Below, one piece after another: positions 1-56,179 of a DNA stretch of 64,000 nucleotides. This DNA is from Cytophagales bacterium. GTDB taxonomy: Bacteria; Bacteroidota; Bacteroidia; Cytophagales; UBA9547. Each line of letters opens with the position of its first letter. The stretch's first letter is position 1. The DNA is taken from contig JAAFIH010000018.1 in the NCBI GenBank assembly GCA_013297755.1, positions 1 through 64,000 of the forward strand, given 5' to 3'. The translations under genes were made by a program, and so were the position numbers. The notes under the pieces are model-generated. The model was not told the DNA's origin. It saw only the letters and a list, made by a program, of their open reading frames with translations, and did no database searches.

Positions 1-492
1 AGGGTTCTATCAAAAAAAGAAGGTTTAAAGCATTGTTAAATTCTACAGAAAGGGAAATACTTATGGGTTTAAATTAAGTAATAATTGCATTTAAAATAAT
101 TAATTATCTTAAATGCGTTTGCCCTGGATTATATCAGAAGGGTAACTTATAGAAAAGTAGAATGTCAATAATAAATTAACTAAAACAGTAGTTAAAAAAA
201 TAAAATATATTAATTACTGTTTTATATCTAACCGAAAAATTAAAATTACATTTCTATAATTTTTCTTCCACTTGGGGAGAAATTAAAAGAGGAGTTTAAA
301 ATAAAATTGAAATATTTGTTTTTTGGTTCAATATAATTTAAAATTTTTAATGTAAAACTATGCTAATAACAAAGCAAGATATGCCACGAATGAACGAATG
401 TTATAAAAGTTTCAGTTTTTAATAATAAAATATTACTTTAGTTTTAAAAAAAAGTAATGAGCTTTAAATCTATATAACAATTATTATTAAAC
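1..492. other. AT-rich region without a recognisable gene
   Basis: I see no convincing reading frame, tRNA or known RNA here. The stretch is very AT-rich. Near 268-288 there is a weak hairpin (a TTTCTTCC arm against GGGAGAAA with one wobble). The region ends at a hairpin plus T-run oriented for the + strand, so some + strand transcript may cross it, either from a gene left of the window or from an unrecognised RNA. Confidence 0.4.
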
Positions 493-16971: not shown

Positions 16972-16987
16972 ATTTTACCTGTATTAA

Positions 16988-17077
16988 ATTATCATTTACT
17001 TAGGCATTTTTTATTACCTCTATCTTGGTCTTTCTCCAAAAAAGAAAGATAATCAGATTCTTAAGTAAACGACATTG
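16988..17077 (+). repeat. Palindromic dispersed repeat, copy 1
   Basis: The element has imperfect terminal inverted repeats (left ATCATTTACTTAGG near 16991, right CTTAAGTAAACGACATT ending near 17075; 13 of 17 positions complementary) and a central hairpin around TCTTTCTCC/GAAAGA. Its reverse complement aligns without gaps to 54195-54285, with about 63 of 80 positions matching by eye. This is a MITE- or ERIC-like non-coding repeat. Confidence 0.7.
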
Positions 17078-17537
17078 TGTATTTTATTATCATTTACATA
17101 CAATTTTAATGATAAATATTGATATTTTTTATTTATACTTAAATAATATTTAATAATTGAAACCTCACAATATAATTTTAAAATAATCAATGGGTCAGTA
17201 AAATGTTTTTTAATTTTTCATTCTAATTTTATTTTTTTTTATAAATAGAAGTTTATTATATTACTTTTTTTTAAGAGATTTCACAAAAAGCTCAGTTTAT
17301 AAATTGCTAATAATTGTGAACTTCAAAAATGATATTCTAAATGTTTTTAAGAAAAATAAAAATAATATTTTACCATTTTAAATTCTTGAATATTACTTAT
17401 TTTTTAGTGATTTATTTACTTTTTTTGATAATTGACACTTTGATATTAAGATTTATTAAAGCAAAAAATTCACAAGCAATGATTATTTATTTTATTTAAG
17501 CAATTCAAAATTACTTTTTGTTGAATCAAAAAAAATC

Positions 17538-41152: not shown

Positions 41153-42187
41153 TTAATGGTGGTCGTCATGATGCTCGTGTTCGGCAACCGCCTGACCGAT
41201 AAATAAAGCCGAAAGCAGTGTAAATATGTAGGCCTGCAAAGCCGCAACAAACACCTCCATCAAACTCATAACTACTGCAAATGGCACTGATACGCCTGCC
41301 ACTGCAAAACTTTTGAACATAAATATAAAACTCAATATACTTAATATAATAATGTGGCCTGCGGTAATATTGGCAAAAAGACGAATCATTAAGGCAAATG
41401 GTTTAGTAAAAATACCTATAACCTCTACAGGTAGCATGATTACCCTAAGTGGCAAAGGCACGCCTGGTGTCCAAAATATATGTGCCCAATATTCTTTGTT
41501 GCCAGAAAATAAAGTAAACAAAAGTGTAATGGCAGCTAAAGTAAGCGTAAAAGCTATATTACCAGAAGCATTGGCTCCAGTAGGAATAAGACCTAATAGA
41601 TTATTAACCCAAATAAAGAAAAATACTGTTAATAAATAAGGGAGATATTTGGCATATTTTGGACCAATATTTGGAGAGGCTATTTCGTCTCTCACAAATG
41701 TTATTAATGGTTCAAATACAGATTGCATTCCACTTGGTGCTTGTCCTACATTTTTTTTGTAAGATGCAGAAATGCTTAAAAATATAATCATAATAATGAT
41801 AGCTGCCAACATCATCGAAGCCACATTTTTTGTAATAGATATATCATAGATTTTTTCAGATTCGTCTAAGCATATTATATGATTGTGGTCTATCCTATAT
41901 CCATTGTAAGATTCAGTTCCATGATGAAAATTAGAGGATGAAAATATTTGAAGACCTTTGGTGGTAGAGTATAATATCACAGGTAGAGGCATAGAAACAG
42001 AGGCGTGTCCTTCGCCAAAAAAATGCCAGTCATAAGCATCAGCTATATGGTGTTTAATCATTTCGGCAGCATTAAACTTTTGCTCCTTACCAGTTGAGTT
42101 ATCTTCATTAGAAGAAAAACTAGGAAAAGAGGCCAAAAAGCTCAAGCTAAGTAGCAAAATCAGTATATTTTTTATTCTATTTTTCAT
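41153..42187 (-). CDS. atpB: ATP synthase F0 a subunit
   Basis: The 344-residue proton-channel subunit. The essential Arg is Arg269 in MIRLFANITAGH. Helices with MLPVEVIGIFTKPFALMIRL and the final QAYIFTLLSALFIGQAV are typical. It has a signal-peptide-like N-terminus and an extra region of about 130 residues before the first core helix, a Bacteroidota trait as I recall. It ends in a His/Asp-rich tail (EHEHHDDHH). The start overlaps the preceding atpI-like gene by 11 bp, and atpE follows 43 bp later. Confidence 0.96.
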   Translation of the reverse strand: MKNRIKNILILLLSLSFLASFPSFSSNEDNSTGKEQKFNAAEMIKHHIADAYDWHFFGEGHASVSMPLPVILYSTTKGLQIFSSSNFHHGTESYNGYRIDHNHIICLDESEKIYDISITKNVASMMLAAIIIMIIFLSISASYKKNVGQAPSGMQSVFEPLITFVRDEIASPNIGPKYAKYLPYLLTVFFFIWVNNLLGLIPTGANASGNIAFTLTLAAITLLFTLFSGNKEYWAHIFWTPGVPLPLRVIMLPVEVIGIFTKPFALMIRLFANITAGHIIILSILSFIFMFKSFAVAGVSVPFAVVMSLMEVFVAALQAYIFTLLSALFIGQAVAEHEHHDDHH

Positions 42188-42590
42188 TCTCTTTGGTATC
42201 GCCTTTGGAATTTGGATGCAAACTTAGTAATAAGGTTTTAATTTCAAAAAAAGAGTACATAAAATATAATATAAAAAATATAAAAAGAAAGGAAGTTGTG
42301 TTTTGTTTAACAAAATAAAAGTAAGAAAACAGAACTATTGCAGATATAACTATTTTGAGACTGCTCGATAACATAAAGTAGTTTTGAGCATCAAGTGGGG
42401 TCTTAGAAAAGCCTTTTAAGACTAAAATATGCGTAAAATAAGACATTAGAGCAAAAAACAGTACTAGAATGTATGAATAAATAGTAATGATATTATTGCC
42501 AAAAATACCCTCGATGATGGCCAAACAAAAAATAATTGATGTAGATAAAAAAAATATTTTTTTTTGATATGTATTTAAAATTGATAACAT
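42177..42590 (-). CDS. AtpI-like small membrane protein heading the ATP synthase operon
   Basis: A 137-residue protein with four predicted membrane helices. It lies first in the operon and overlaps atpB by 11 bp. By position and topology it corresponds to AtpI/UncI, a c-ring assembly and Mg2+-related factor. Sequence similarity in this family is weak, so the identification rests mainly on context. No atpZ-like gene precedes it. Confidence 0.6.
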   Translation of the reverse strand: MLSILNTYQKKIFFLSTSIIFCLAIIEGIFGNNIITIYSYILVLFFALMSYFTHILVLKGFSKTPLDAQNYFMLSSSLKIVISAIVLFSYFYFVKQNTTSFLFIFFILYFMYSFFEIKTLLLSLHPNSKGDTKENEK

Positions 42591-42835
42591 AAAAACATGT
42601 GTCTGCTTTTGATTTTAAAATTCCGTAATTCTCTACAATGCTACTGCTTTATTTGTTATATACAAAATCTATTTTTAATTTCATTTATTTTTGTAAAACA
42701 TCAAATGTTGTTAATTTTTGAATTAATTTATCAATATATTTTAATTTCGTTTAATTATAAATCCTATTAACTTTTTGTTTTGGAAAAAGTCAAAGATAGT
42801 GGCATTAAAAAATGCTTTATTATTCGACATTGCAT

Positions 42836-45459: not shown

Positions 45460-45871
45460 CTATTTTGAAAAATATTATTTTTATTTGTTAATTCAGGTCA
45501 AAAGTCTTTAAATATAAGAGTTTTACAAAAATATTATGATTATTCATTGACTAGAAAGAGTTAATGATGTCTAGTTCTTCTGTTGAAAATCCTTAAAAAC
45601 ACTATATAAATAGTTAGTTTGAGGTAATAACTATTTTAAGGTAACTTCTATAAATTTCTTTTTTTTATATTTTCTTCTCCTAACAAGAAAGTTACTAAGA
45701 GACTTTTGATAATAAAAATGAGGTTTTTAGAGGTTCTTTAAATGTGAATAAGACTTTTTAATACTACAAATTATTACTTCAATTTTGATTTTTTTAAAAA
45801 AAGTACATAAAAACTTATAACACTTATTTCATTTTAAGTAATATTGTAGTGTAGATTACGTTTTTACAATA
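45460..45871. other. AT-rich intergenic region upstream of SprE/PorW gene
   Basis: 412 bp with no gene seen. A weak hairpin-like stretch near 45675-45700 (TTCTTCTCC then AAGAAAGTTA) recalls the centre of the palindromic repeats at 17.0 and 54.2 kb, but its flanks do not match. Confidence 0.35.
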
Positions 45872-53147: not shown

Positions 53148-54191
53148 ATGATTCAATTAAGCCAAAGTACCATGAGCAGTGTTGCTGTACATGCCATTGG
53201 AAACAAAGGAAACGATGAACCACTAGTAATATCTAAAGGCTTACTAAAAATAGATGAAAACGTACAAATATTACTTACAGATTATTTTTTAACCCCATTT
53301 AAAAAATCAATTTTTTCTACTTTTACCCATAGTTCTGATTTGCAACTCAACGAAATGTTTACTTTTGTAAGTAAGATTTTTGCCGATCCCGAAAGTATAT
53401 ATTTACATTCGATTTCTATTGCCAAGCATTTGTACGATCAATCAACTCACCCAAACATCAAACCAGGCGAATTGTATGTGGCCTATTTTGATGGCTGTAT
53501 GATAGAAAACGAAACTTTGGATGCTATTGGAATTTTTAAATCAGAAAACAAAGACACTTTTTTGAAAGTATTACCTACTAATGAAAATTATCAAATTAAT
53601 TCTGAAATAGGCATCAATACCAACAAATTAGACAAAGGATGCCTAATTTTCAATACTGAAAAAGAAAAAGGATACAAATTGTGTGTAATAGACCAAACTA
53701 ACAAAGGCGATGAGGCACAGTATTGGAAAAACGATTTTTTGCAAATCATACCACGTAACGATAGCTACCACTATACCGAAAATTATATGGATTTATGCAA
53801 AAATTTTGTCACCGAAAAATTACCTAACGAATTTGAAATATCCAAAACCGAACAAATTGATTTACTCAATCGATCTGCAAATTTTTTTAAAAATAAAGAA
53901 ACTTTCGATTGGAATGAATTTAGTAGCGAAGTAATACAGCAACCCGAAATTATTGAAACTTTCAAAGATTTTAAAAAAGAATATACCACAGAACGACAAA
54001 TTCCGCTTGTAGATGCCTTTGATATTTCAGAAACTGCCGTAAAAAAACAAGTCAAAATATTCAAATCTGTATTGAAATTAGACAAAAATTTTCATATTTA
54101 CATTCATGGAAATAAAGATTTGATAGAATCAGGTATAGATCCAGCCAATGGTATGAAATATTATAAAATTTTCTATAAAGAAGAATCTTAG
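53148..54191 (+). CDS. NdpA/YejK-type nucleoid-associated protein
   Basis: A 347-residue protein of the 37-kDa nucleoid-associated family. Family features are the N-terminal VAVHAIGNKGNDEPLVISK, the central GELYVAYFDGCMIENETLDAIGIFKSE-like region (near 105-135), and a C-terminal FDISETAVKKQVKIFKSVLKLD. The enterobacterial homologue binds the nucleoid, but the exact role is unclear; phage homologues act in transcription or defence contexts. Length and order fit the family. A palindromic repeat element begins 4 bp after its stop. Confidence 0.8.
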   Translation: MIQLSQSTMSSVAVHAIGNKGNDEPLVISKGLLKIDENVQILLTDYFLTPFKKSIFSTFTHSSDLQLNEMFTFVSKIFADPESIYLHSISIAKHLYDQSTHPNIKPGELYVAYFDGCMIENETLDAIGIFKSENKDTFLKVLPTNENYQINSEIGINTNKLDKGCLIFNTEKEKGYKLCVIDQTNKGDEAQYWKNDFLQIIPRNDSYHYTENYMDLCKNFVTEKLPNEFEISKTEQIDLLNRSANFFKNKETFDWNEFSSEVIQQPEIIETFKDFKKEYTTERQIPLVDAFDISETAVKKQVKIFKSVLKLDKNFHIYIHGNKDLIESGIDPANGMKYYKIFYKEES

Positions 54192-54194
54192 GTC

Positions 54195-54285
54195 CCTGTC
54201 GTTTACACTAGAATCAAATTATCTTTCTCTTTTGGAGAAAGATAAATATTGTGGCAATGAATAATGCTTAAGCAATCGACATTGA
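54195..54285 (-). repeat. Palindromic dispersed repeat, copy 2
   Basis: The ends are imperfect inverted repeats (CCTGTCGTTTACAC at the left, GCAATCGACATTG at the right). The centre is a perfect hairpin ATCTTTCTC/GAGAAAGAT. Read on the minus strand it aligns without gaps to 16988-17077 at about 63 of 80 positions. It lies in the ndpA-nadE gap and may double as a terminator for the nucleoid-associated protein gene. Confidence 0.7.
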
Positions 54286-54343
54286 ATCTTAGGTTTATAT
54301 TTATTTGATTTAGTATTTTTAATAGTAATTTTAATTATAAATA

Positions 54344-56179
54344 ATGATAAAAATAGGTGGAGCAGCACTTAATCAAACTCCAATTGCTTGGGAGCATAAT
54401 AAGCAAAACATCATTTATGCTATCGAATATGCACGTATGAATGGCGTAGAATTGTTATGCTTGCCCGAAATGTGTATCTCTGGATATGGTTGTGAGGATT
54501 TATTTTTGAGCCAATGGATTTATGATACATCTTTGATAAAACTTACTGAATTACTGCCATATACTTACGACATAGCTGTATGTATTGGTTTACCAATTTT
54601 TTACAAAGGCACTCGATACAATGGTTCATGTTTGATACAAAATCATAAGATCTTAGGCATATATATAAAACAACATTTGGCCAATGATGGCATTTTTTAT
54701 GAAAATAGATGGTTTGAGCCTTGGCCATTTCCCCAAAAAACTGATGTAATTTTTATTGATAAACTTCAATTAAATATTCCTATTGGAGACATAGTTTTTG
54801 AACTCAAATTTAATGACACTAAAACATATAAAATAGCATTTGAGATTTGTGAAGATGCCTGGAAAGGCGACCAACGCCCTGCACACGCACACTTAAAACG
54901 AAATGTAGATATTATTTTAAATCCCAGTGCTAGCAATTTTGAATTTGGCAAATCTACCCGCAGGCATCAATTAGTGGTACAATCATCTAGCCAGTTTAGC
55001 TGTTGCTATGTATATGCGAATTTGCTTGGAAATGAATCAGGAAAAATAATTTTTGATGGAGAAATTTTAATAGCCCAAAAAGGAAAATTATTACGAAACA
55101 ATACTCTACTTTCTTTTCAAGATTTCAATGTTATTTGGACCGATGTAGATATAGAAAATACCGAAAAGTCTATCACATATTTTAATAATTATGACTACAA
55201 AAGTCAAGAAATAGCCTTTAGAGATGCTGTTTCGTTGGCCTTGTTTGATTATATGCGAAAAAGCAAATCACAAGGTTTTGTGTTGTCGCTAAGTGGCGGA
55301 GCCGATTCTTGCTGCTGTGCTGTATTAGTAGCCGAAATGATAAAAAGAGCAAAACTAGAACTTAGCGAAACTTACTTTTTATCTAAGTCAGGGTTGAAAG
55401 AAAATATAAACATTCTTACCTGTGCATATCAAGGCACTACTAATTCATCGGAAGCTACTTTTGTATCGGCCAAGAATCTAGCCAATAGTATTGATGCTAC
55501 CTTTTATCATTGGAATATTGATACAGAAGTAGAAACTTATACCCAAAAAATAGAAAATGTAATCAACCGAAAACTTACTTGGACACAAGACGATTTGGCT
55601 TTACAAAACATCCAAGCACGCACACGAAGCCCTATCATTTGGATGCTTGCTAATACACTGAATGCACTTTTGATTACAACTTCCAATCGCTCAGAGGGCG
55701 ATGTAGGCTACTGCACTATGGATGGCGACACCTCTGGCAGCATAGCTCCCATTGCAGGTGTAGATAAGTTTTTTGTTAAAAAATGGCTTATCTGGGCTCA
55801 GCAAGAGCTTGGTTATGAAGCCTTGCAGTTTGTCAATGATATGCAACCCACGGCCGAATTGCGACCCTTGGAATCGCACCAGACCGATGAAAAAGATTTA
55901 ATGCCTTATTTTATATTGAATGAAATAGAAAAACTAGCAATAAGAGAATGGAAATCTCCTAAAGAAGTACTAGAAATATTAAAACAAAAAAACTTAGAAT
56001 CTTACGATTTGTTAAAGCAACATATCAAAACTTTTTATCGGATGTGGGCCCGCAGCCAATGGAAACGTGAGCGATATGCTCCATCTTTTCATATTGATGT
56101 TCATAATATAGATCCACGAAGCTGGTGTCGTTTTCCTATATTGAGTGGCGGATTTGACGAAGAGTTAAGTAAGTTTTAA
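54344..56179 (+). CDS. nadE: Glutamine-dependent NAD+ synthetase
   Basis: A 611-residue two-domain enzyme for the last step of NAD synthesis. The N-terminal nitrilase-type glutaminase (1-270) has the triad Glu42 (CLPEM), Lys near 108 (YIKQHL) and Cys169 (FEICEDAW). The C-terminal ATP-pyrophosphatase domain has SGGADS at 317-322 and TSNRSEGDVGYCTMDGD near 445. The length matches the fused form. The 3' end converges on a DUF2851 gene that is co-oriented with 3-hydroxyanthranilate dioxygenase, another NAD-pathway gene. Confidence 0.96.
   Translation: MIKIGGAALNQTPIAWEHNKQNIIYAIEYARMNGVELLCLPEMCISGYGCEDLFLSQWIYDTSLIKLTELLPYTYDIAVCIGLPIFYKGTRYNGSCLIQNHKILGIYIKQHLANDGIFYENRWFEPWPFPQKTDVIFIDKLQLNIPIGDIVFELKFNDTKTYKIAFEICEDAWKGDQRPAHAHLKRNVDIILNPSASNFEFGKSTRRHQLVVQSSSQFSCCYVYANLLGNESGKIIFDGEILIAQKGKLLRNNTLLSFQDFNVIWTDVDIENTEKSITYFNNYDYKSQEIAFRDAVSLALFDYMRKSKSQGFVLSLSGGADSCCCAVLVAEMIKRAKLELSETYFLSKSGLKENINILTCAYQGTTNSSEATFVSAKNLANSIDATFYHWNIDTEVETYTQKIENVINRKLTWTQDDLALQNIQARTRSPIIWMLANTLNALLITTSNRSEGDVGYCTMDGDTSGSIAPIAGVDKFFVKKWLIWAQQELGYEALQFVNDMQPTAELRPLESHQTDEKDLMPYFILNEIEKLAIREWKSPKEVLEILKQKNLESYDLLKQHIKTFYRMWARSQWKRERYAPSFHIDVHNIDPRSWCRFPILSGGFDEELSKF

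Follow-up and report, generated by a model that had tools for sequence, protein, structure and literature searches.

The window, by which we mean the whole 64,000-nucleotide stretch of DNA analyzed here, has a G+C content of 31.6% and carries three copies of a 91-bp element. Their coordinates are given in Table 1, together with the flanking duplications, the neighboring open reading frames (ORFs) and one element each of two other MITE-like families described below. The original prediction had reported two of the copies, in opposite orientation. It placed them at 16988-17077 and 54195-54285, borders that are slightly corrected in the table, and it missed the copy that lies between them. The ORF listed from 42812, on one side of this third copy, probably has its true start downstream. 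Aligned without gaps, the two sites first reported are identical in 63 of 79 columns (79.7%), near the 63 of 80 that had been claimed, and their local alignment score was 78, whereas 5,000 shuffles reached no more than 33.

Table 1. Copies of the 91-bp element and associated features in the window
Feature	Position	Strand	Description
T2 copy	224-334		111 bp; ends ATATCAAACCGAAAAA; triplex-motif core
Probable left target-site duplication, copy 1	16980-16989	+	TGTATTAAAT; about 3 bases overlap the eroded left end; 8/10 identical to 17078-17087
Copy 1 of 91-bp element	16987-17077	+	Left end eroded: AATTATCA where CAATGTCG is expected
Right target-site duplication, copy 1	17078-17087	+	TGTATTTTAT
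ORF on one side of copy 3	42177-42590	-	
Copy 3 of 91-bp element	42742-42832	-	Flanks AAATATAATG / AAATATATTG; 9/10 duplication
ORF on the other side of copy 3	listed from 42812	+	
Degenerate T4-like element	45640-45738		Ends related to GGGAACTTCTAAAAACC
Left target-site duplication, copy 2	54184-54193	+	AATCTTAGGT; 10/10 identical to 54285-54294
Copy 2 of 91-bp element	54194-54284	-	Lies between ORF 53148-54191 (+) and ORF 54344-56179 (+)
Core of copy 2	54222-54254	+ (pyrimidine-purine-purine strand)	TCTTTCTCT-TTT-GGAGAAAGA hairpin, then degenerate third arm ATATTGTGG
Right target-site duplication, copy 2	54285-54294	+	AATCTTAGGT

Copy number, anatomy and target sites of the 91-bp family

The original prediction had staked itself on the existence of further copies in the genome, and had proposed a covariance-model search for them. 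Further copies were plentiful. In a 734-kb sample of this genome, selected around 91-bp copies, a profile detected 137 copies, of which 120 are full length. In the whole genome of this uncultured Bacteroidota bacterium (4.24 Mb in 70 contigs), a similarity search with a single copy yielded more than 40 places. A covariance model trained on 35 copies found 147 distinct places at E ≤ 1, and for about 140 of these E was below 1e-4. The strict end pattern was absent from the 240 other genomes of the order, and this genome was the only one among 241 to contain it. Matches to the model in relatives amounted to one good match in G001, a same-genus MAG (Bacteroidetes bacterium isolate PH2015_06S_32_163, RDZG01000069), two weak matches in G002, which belongs to the same genus as well, and one marginal match in G008. 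The 91-bp family is an expansion of this species.

The element consists of 18-bp terminal inverted repeats (CAATGTCGTTTACTTAAG) and a central hairpin, and its consensus reads CAATGTCGTTTACTTAAG-CATTTTTTATTG-CCTCTATCT-TAG-TCTTTCTCC-AAA-GGAGAAAGA-TAATCTGATT-CTTAAGTAAACGACATTG. The inverted repeats and the central TCTTTCTCC hairpin are present as had been described. As a single strand, the complete element folds far more strongly than shuffles do (RNA, z -10; DNA, z -9). The center and the right terminus had been taken for the most conserved parts, which did not hold for the family: across many copies, conservation was nearly even, at 0.83-0.91.

Target-site duplications, another of the proposed checks, were found around the copies as repeats of exactly 10 bp in length. 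The identity between flanks was 0.776 at exactly 10 bp, as against 0.466 for mismatched pairs of flanks, and was at background level at 6-9 and 11-14 bp. At least 8 of the 10 duplication bases matched in 62% of the copies (3.6% by chance). The duplicated target is AT-rich and resembles RWTTATAAWY. None of the 120 copies lay inside an ORF of at least 120 aa, where 60% of random positions fall. An empty site for the copy at 54194 was not readable in G001 or G002, in which the neighboring gene order differs.

Judged by sequence, at least one copy has moved recently, because two identical copies, at C12:183333 and C12:188516, are flanked by different duplications (AATTATAATT and CTAAAGGAAT). The median divergence of copies from the consensus is 12%, and the decay is even along the element. 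Among the copies of this genome, no excess of paired changes over shuffles was found in the ends, the hairpin or the third arm. Even decay without compensatory change indicates that the copies are not retained where they lie as structured RNA or DNA. Variants at positions 55, 63, 68 and 69 are linked, which points to at least two source lineages. At L031 1438-1629 (G000:C14:33437-33628), two copies stand in direct tandem with one copy of the 10-bp sequence ATTTAAAAAT between them, and this duplication is therefore present three times.

IS elements with matching ends

A related transposase had also been named as something to look for. In the assembly of this genome, seven IS ends carry the MITE terminal bases, those on C24 and C54 being one base shorter; all seven lack a 91-bp partner and run into contig ends. 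Four left ends (C2, C16, C43 and C44) enter a common sequence and break off after exactly 127 bp of it; the three right ends, on C70, C24 and C54, lead into another common sequence. This is the pattern to be expected where an assembler has collapsed a repeated IS. Two left/right pairs have perfect 10-bp duplications, AATGTTATAC for C2/C70 and AATTATATAT for C44/C54. The IS body is missing from this draft assembly.

G001 holds a complete IS (L065) of 1,417 bp, whose ends CAATGTCGTTTAGTTAAG are nearly equal to those of the MITE, with one base changed. The transposase gene of this copy, the only complete one found, is frameshifted, and its frames were joined with X for the model search. The product scored 122.7 bits against the NCBIfam IS4-family model NF033592 (cut-off 115) and 28.9 against Pfam DDE_Tnp_1 (cut-off 23). 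Its D-D spacer is 82 and its D-E spacer, measured across the joined frames, about 99; as compared with the Y(2)R(3)E(6)K motif, Y(2)R(3)E is present and K is found at +7. The single good MITE copy of the same genome (L071) has a right end, CTTAACTAAACGACATT, that follows the IS of that species, and a duplication of AATTGTAAAT.

Members of the IS4 subgroup have ends of the pattern -AATR--------WTW, duplications of 10-13 bp and a size of 1400-1650 bp (De Palmenaer et al. 2008, PMC2266710). The IS resembles them in its ends, which fit this pattern, its duplications of about 10 bp, its length and its DDE transposase above the IS4 cut-off, but differs in that the K of YREK lies one residue further on and the G001 copy is frameshifted; the 91-bp element differs in having no transposase gene. 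The only two DDE_Tnp_1 matches genome-wide, on C16 and C69, belong to other IS elements without these ends and were rejected as the parent.

The 91-bp element has the features of a MITE: it is short and non-coding, is dispersed in about 140 copies, and has its ends and the 10-bp length of its duplications in common with the IS. An origin by simple internal deletion of the IS was rejected, because the 18-bp ends are the only part in which the MITE clearly resembles the IS. We consider it very probable that the element is a non-coding MITE mobilized in trans by an IS4-subgroup element and inserted at AT-rich intergenic sites. The transposase of a co-resident IS4-family IS (IS4 subgroup) would recognize the common 18-bp ends and move the element into AT-rich intergenic sites resembling RWTTATAAWY. 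Staggered cuts at insertion would leave the 10-bp duplication, and the inserted copies would then drift neutrally. We infer both the movement in trans and an active transposase, the latter because the IS body is missing here and the only complete copy is frameshifted.

The element is ordinary in kind and, as far as the literature and sequence libraries compared can show, new as a family. A Porphyromonas gingivalis MITE (PMC4596501) and an IS982-type MITE of Cardinium (PMC9769881) are likewise short, non-coding and multi-copy, the latter also being tied to a resident IS. These IS-derived MITEs of Bacteroidota belong to another IS family, whereas the 91-bp element has only its ends, and not its interior, in common with its IS.

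A chance likeness of AT-rich intergenic sequences might be suspected in a window of this G+C content, at which weak palindromes are common. This explanation is refuted by the shuffle scores, by the copy number and by the terminal sequence, which has 237 matches as against 5 for a reversed control, and its probability is negligible. The original prediction had called the element a non-coding mobile or REP/ERIC-like family of this genome. The mobile half of this description agrees with the multiple copies, the inverted ends, the 10-bp duplications and an autonomous IS with common ends, whereas the REP/ERIC-like half is not supported. REP units, which are short palindromes tied to RAYT transposases, are not known to make 10-bp target duplications. 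The 91-bp family is like REP and ERIC repeats in being palindromic, intergenic and dispersed, and differs from them in its 10-bp duplications and IS-shared ends. The ERIC consensus of about 127 bp is enterobacterial, and the 91-bp family, compared with it by description, is set apart in both length and host group.

A REP/ERIC-like or structured-RNA element might instead be kept for a local function, as a terminator, an mRNA stabilizer or a nucleoid-protein site. Such a function would suit the intergenic placement and the strong folding of the element as RNA (-35 kcal/mol, z -10). It is nonetheless very improbable in view of the exact 10-bp duplications and the even decay without compensatory change; in addition, the element had no match in Rfam, and no gene-orientation preference of the copies was found (23 convergent, 22 divergent and 36 tandem). 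Ten Y1 (RAYT/IS200-like) transposase genes occur in this genome, G000 (C13:2627, C9:12205, C56:111379 and seven more), and the four of these loci that were checked had no full 91-bp copy and one weak partial match. Ends and 10-bp duplications in common with an IS4-type IS thus speak for a MITE and not for a REP/ERIC repeat.

Triplex-motif cores in the 91-bp family and other MITE-like elements

Read on the opposite strand, the core of the element is TCTTTCTCC-TTT-GGAGAAAGA-CTA-AGATAGAGG, that is, a pyrimidine arm followed by its complement and then by a mirror purine arm. Under the ITxF rules, each of the three stems measures 6-15 nt and each loop 1-6 nt, and the triads must be AAT, GGC or TAT, a single mismatch being tolerated (Holder et al. 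2015, PMC4666352). With 9-nt stems, loops of 3 and 3 nt and nine valid triads, the consensus core is a class II intrastrand-triplex motif (PIT/TM) and thus a predicted triplex, and its single strand TCTTTCTCCTTTGGAGAAAGACTAAGATAGAGG is a candidate for this fold. In the relative from G001, a coupled change, GGGGAAAGA / AGATAGGGG, places the same A-to-G in both purine arms. All nine triads are kept in only 10 of the 120 copies. A scan for 9-nt stems detected 29 motifs inside the 91-bp MITE and another 23 in the rest of the 734 kb, whereas a shuffled genome gave none. Of these 23, a few are MITE copies that escaped the mask, and the majority of the remainder are inside other MITE-like elements; two strict motifs, at C70:45616 and C70:46837, are clearly outside such elements.

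The intrastrand triplex motifs known as PIT or TM-ECO (PMC4666352) are similar in their succession of pyrimidine arm, loop, purine arm, 3-nt loop and mirror purine arm, in their intergenic location, and in a copy number that varies between close relatives. By contrast, the arms are A+T-richer here, and the motif lies inside mobile elements that have terminal repeats and are flanked by target duplications, whereas Holder et al. (2015, PMC4666352) saw no link of the E. coli motif with transposons, phages or plasmids. We looked at one such motif in E. coli K-12, located between yihR and yihS: neither terminal repeats nor a clean duplication were seen around it, so that a link with MITEs was not apparent there, and alleles without it were too different for a clear empty site.

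Three other MITE-like families, T2, T3 and T4, have a triplex-motif core in some members. T2 elements (about 111 bp, ends ATATCAAACCGAAAAA) are nested in and around the 91-bp family (T1), with insertions consistent with TA (2-bp) duplication; 21 end-bounded copies were found in the 734 kb, and a strict search of the whole genome gave 13 matches. T3 has ends CAGGGCAAACGCATTTAA and 9-bp duplications (ATCGTTTAC and GGTTATATT), and T4 has ends GGGAACTTCTAAAAACC and 4-bp duplications (TTAA, AATA and TTAT). Because the four families differ in their ends and in the length of their duplications (10, 2, 9 and 4 bp), different transposases would be implied. Motifs with 8-nt stems were present in 42 of 104 T1, 15 of 21 T2, 1 of 7 T3 and 1 of 6 T4 elements, where shuffles gave 0 to 0.05. 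In T3 and in T4, the automatic scan thus found a single triplex-bearing copy each. Because the 734 kb had been selected around 91-bp copies, the proportions from these scans are not free of bias. T2, T3 and T4 also occur with another common core, TTCTGTGGCATCGTAACAGAA, in a pattern that looks as if cores had been exchanged. This core and its flanks stand between the ends of three MITE-like families at G000:C25:2741-2859, C39:3592-3710, C23:176494-176686 and C45:43845-43974.

Some 91-bp copies are themselves interrupted. A third MITE-like element at L100 19183-19324 (G000:C70:86357-86498), with ends CAGGGCAAACGCATTTAAA, a 9-bp duplication CTTTTGRAG and a perfect triplex motif, sits within the hairpin of one copy. 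Other copies are interrupted by ends of an IS1634-type element (AACCCAACTTGTAT; L042, L018 near 2590, and L049 near 2350-2990) and by an apparent short derivative without a transposase.

In addition to movement by the IS4 transposase, the triplex core might facilitate the movement of an element of this small size, for instance if folding of the 55-bp interior drew the two ends together, and might thus be a recurrent MITE module. All nine triads of the consensus core are of permitted class II types (PMC4666352), and both the coupled change in G001 and the frequency of 8-nt-stem motifs in T1-T4 elements, far above that in shuffles, argue for such a role. However, double changes preserving the hairpin, the ends or the third arm occur no more often among the copies of this genome than in shuffles, few copies have retained the nine triads intact, and a different core is present in most T3 and T4 elements, so that we regard a helping role as rather unlikely. 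The sequences are compatible with a core that may aid transposition as well as with one that is merely carried along. We tentatively suggest that triplex hairpins could be modular cargo of MITEs in this lineage, carried by members of at least four families. The hairpins would then spread by borrowed transposition, and they may in turn help very short elements to transpose.

Triplex motifs have been described in bacteria for decades, with a copy number that is very variable between close relatives and with no known route of spread. Most of the motifs found here lie inside MITEs with target duplications, which would provide a vehicle for motifs that had been reported as unlinked to mobile elements, and the spread of triplex motifs becomes a directly testable question.
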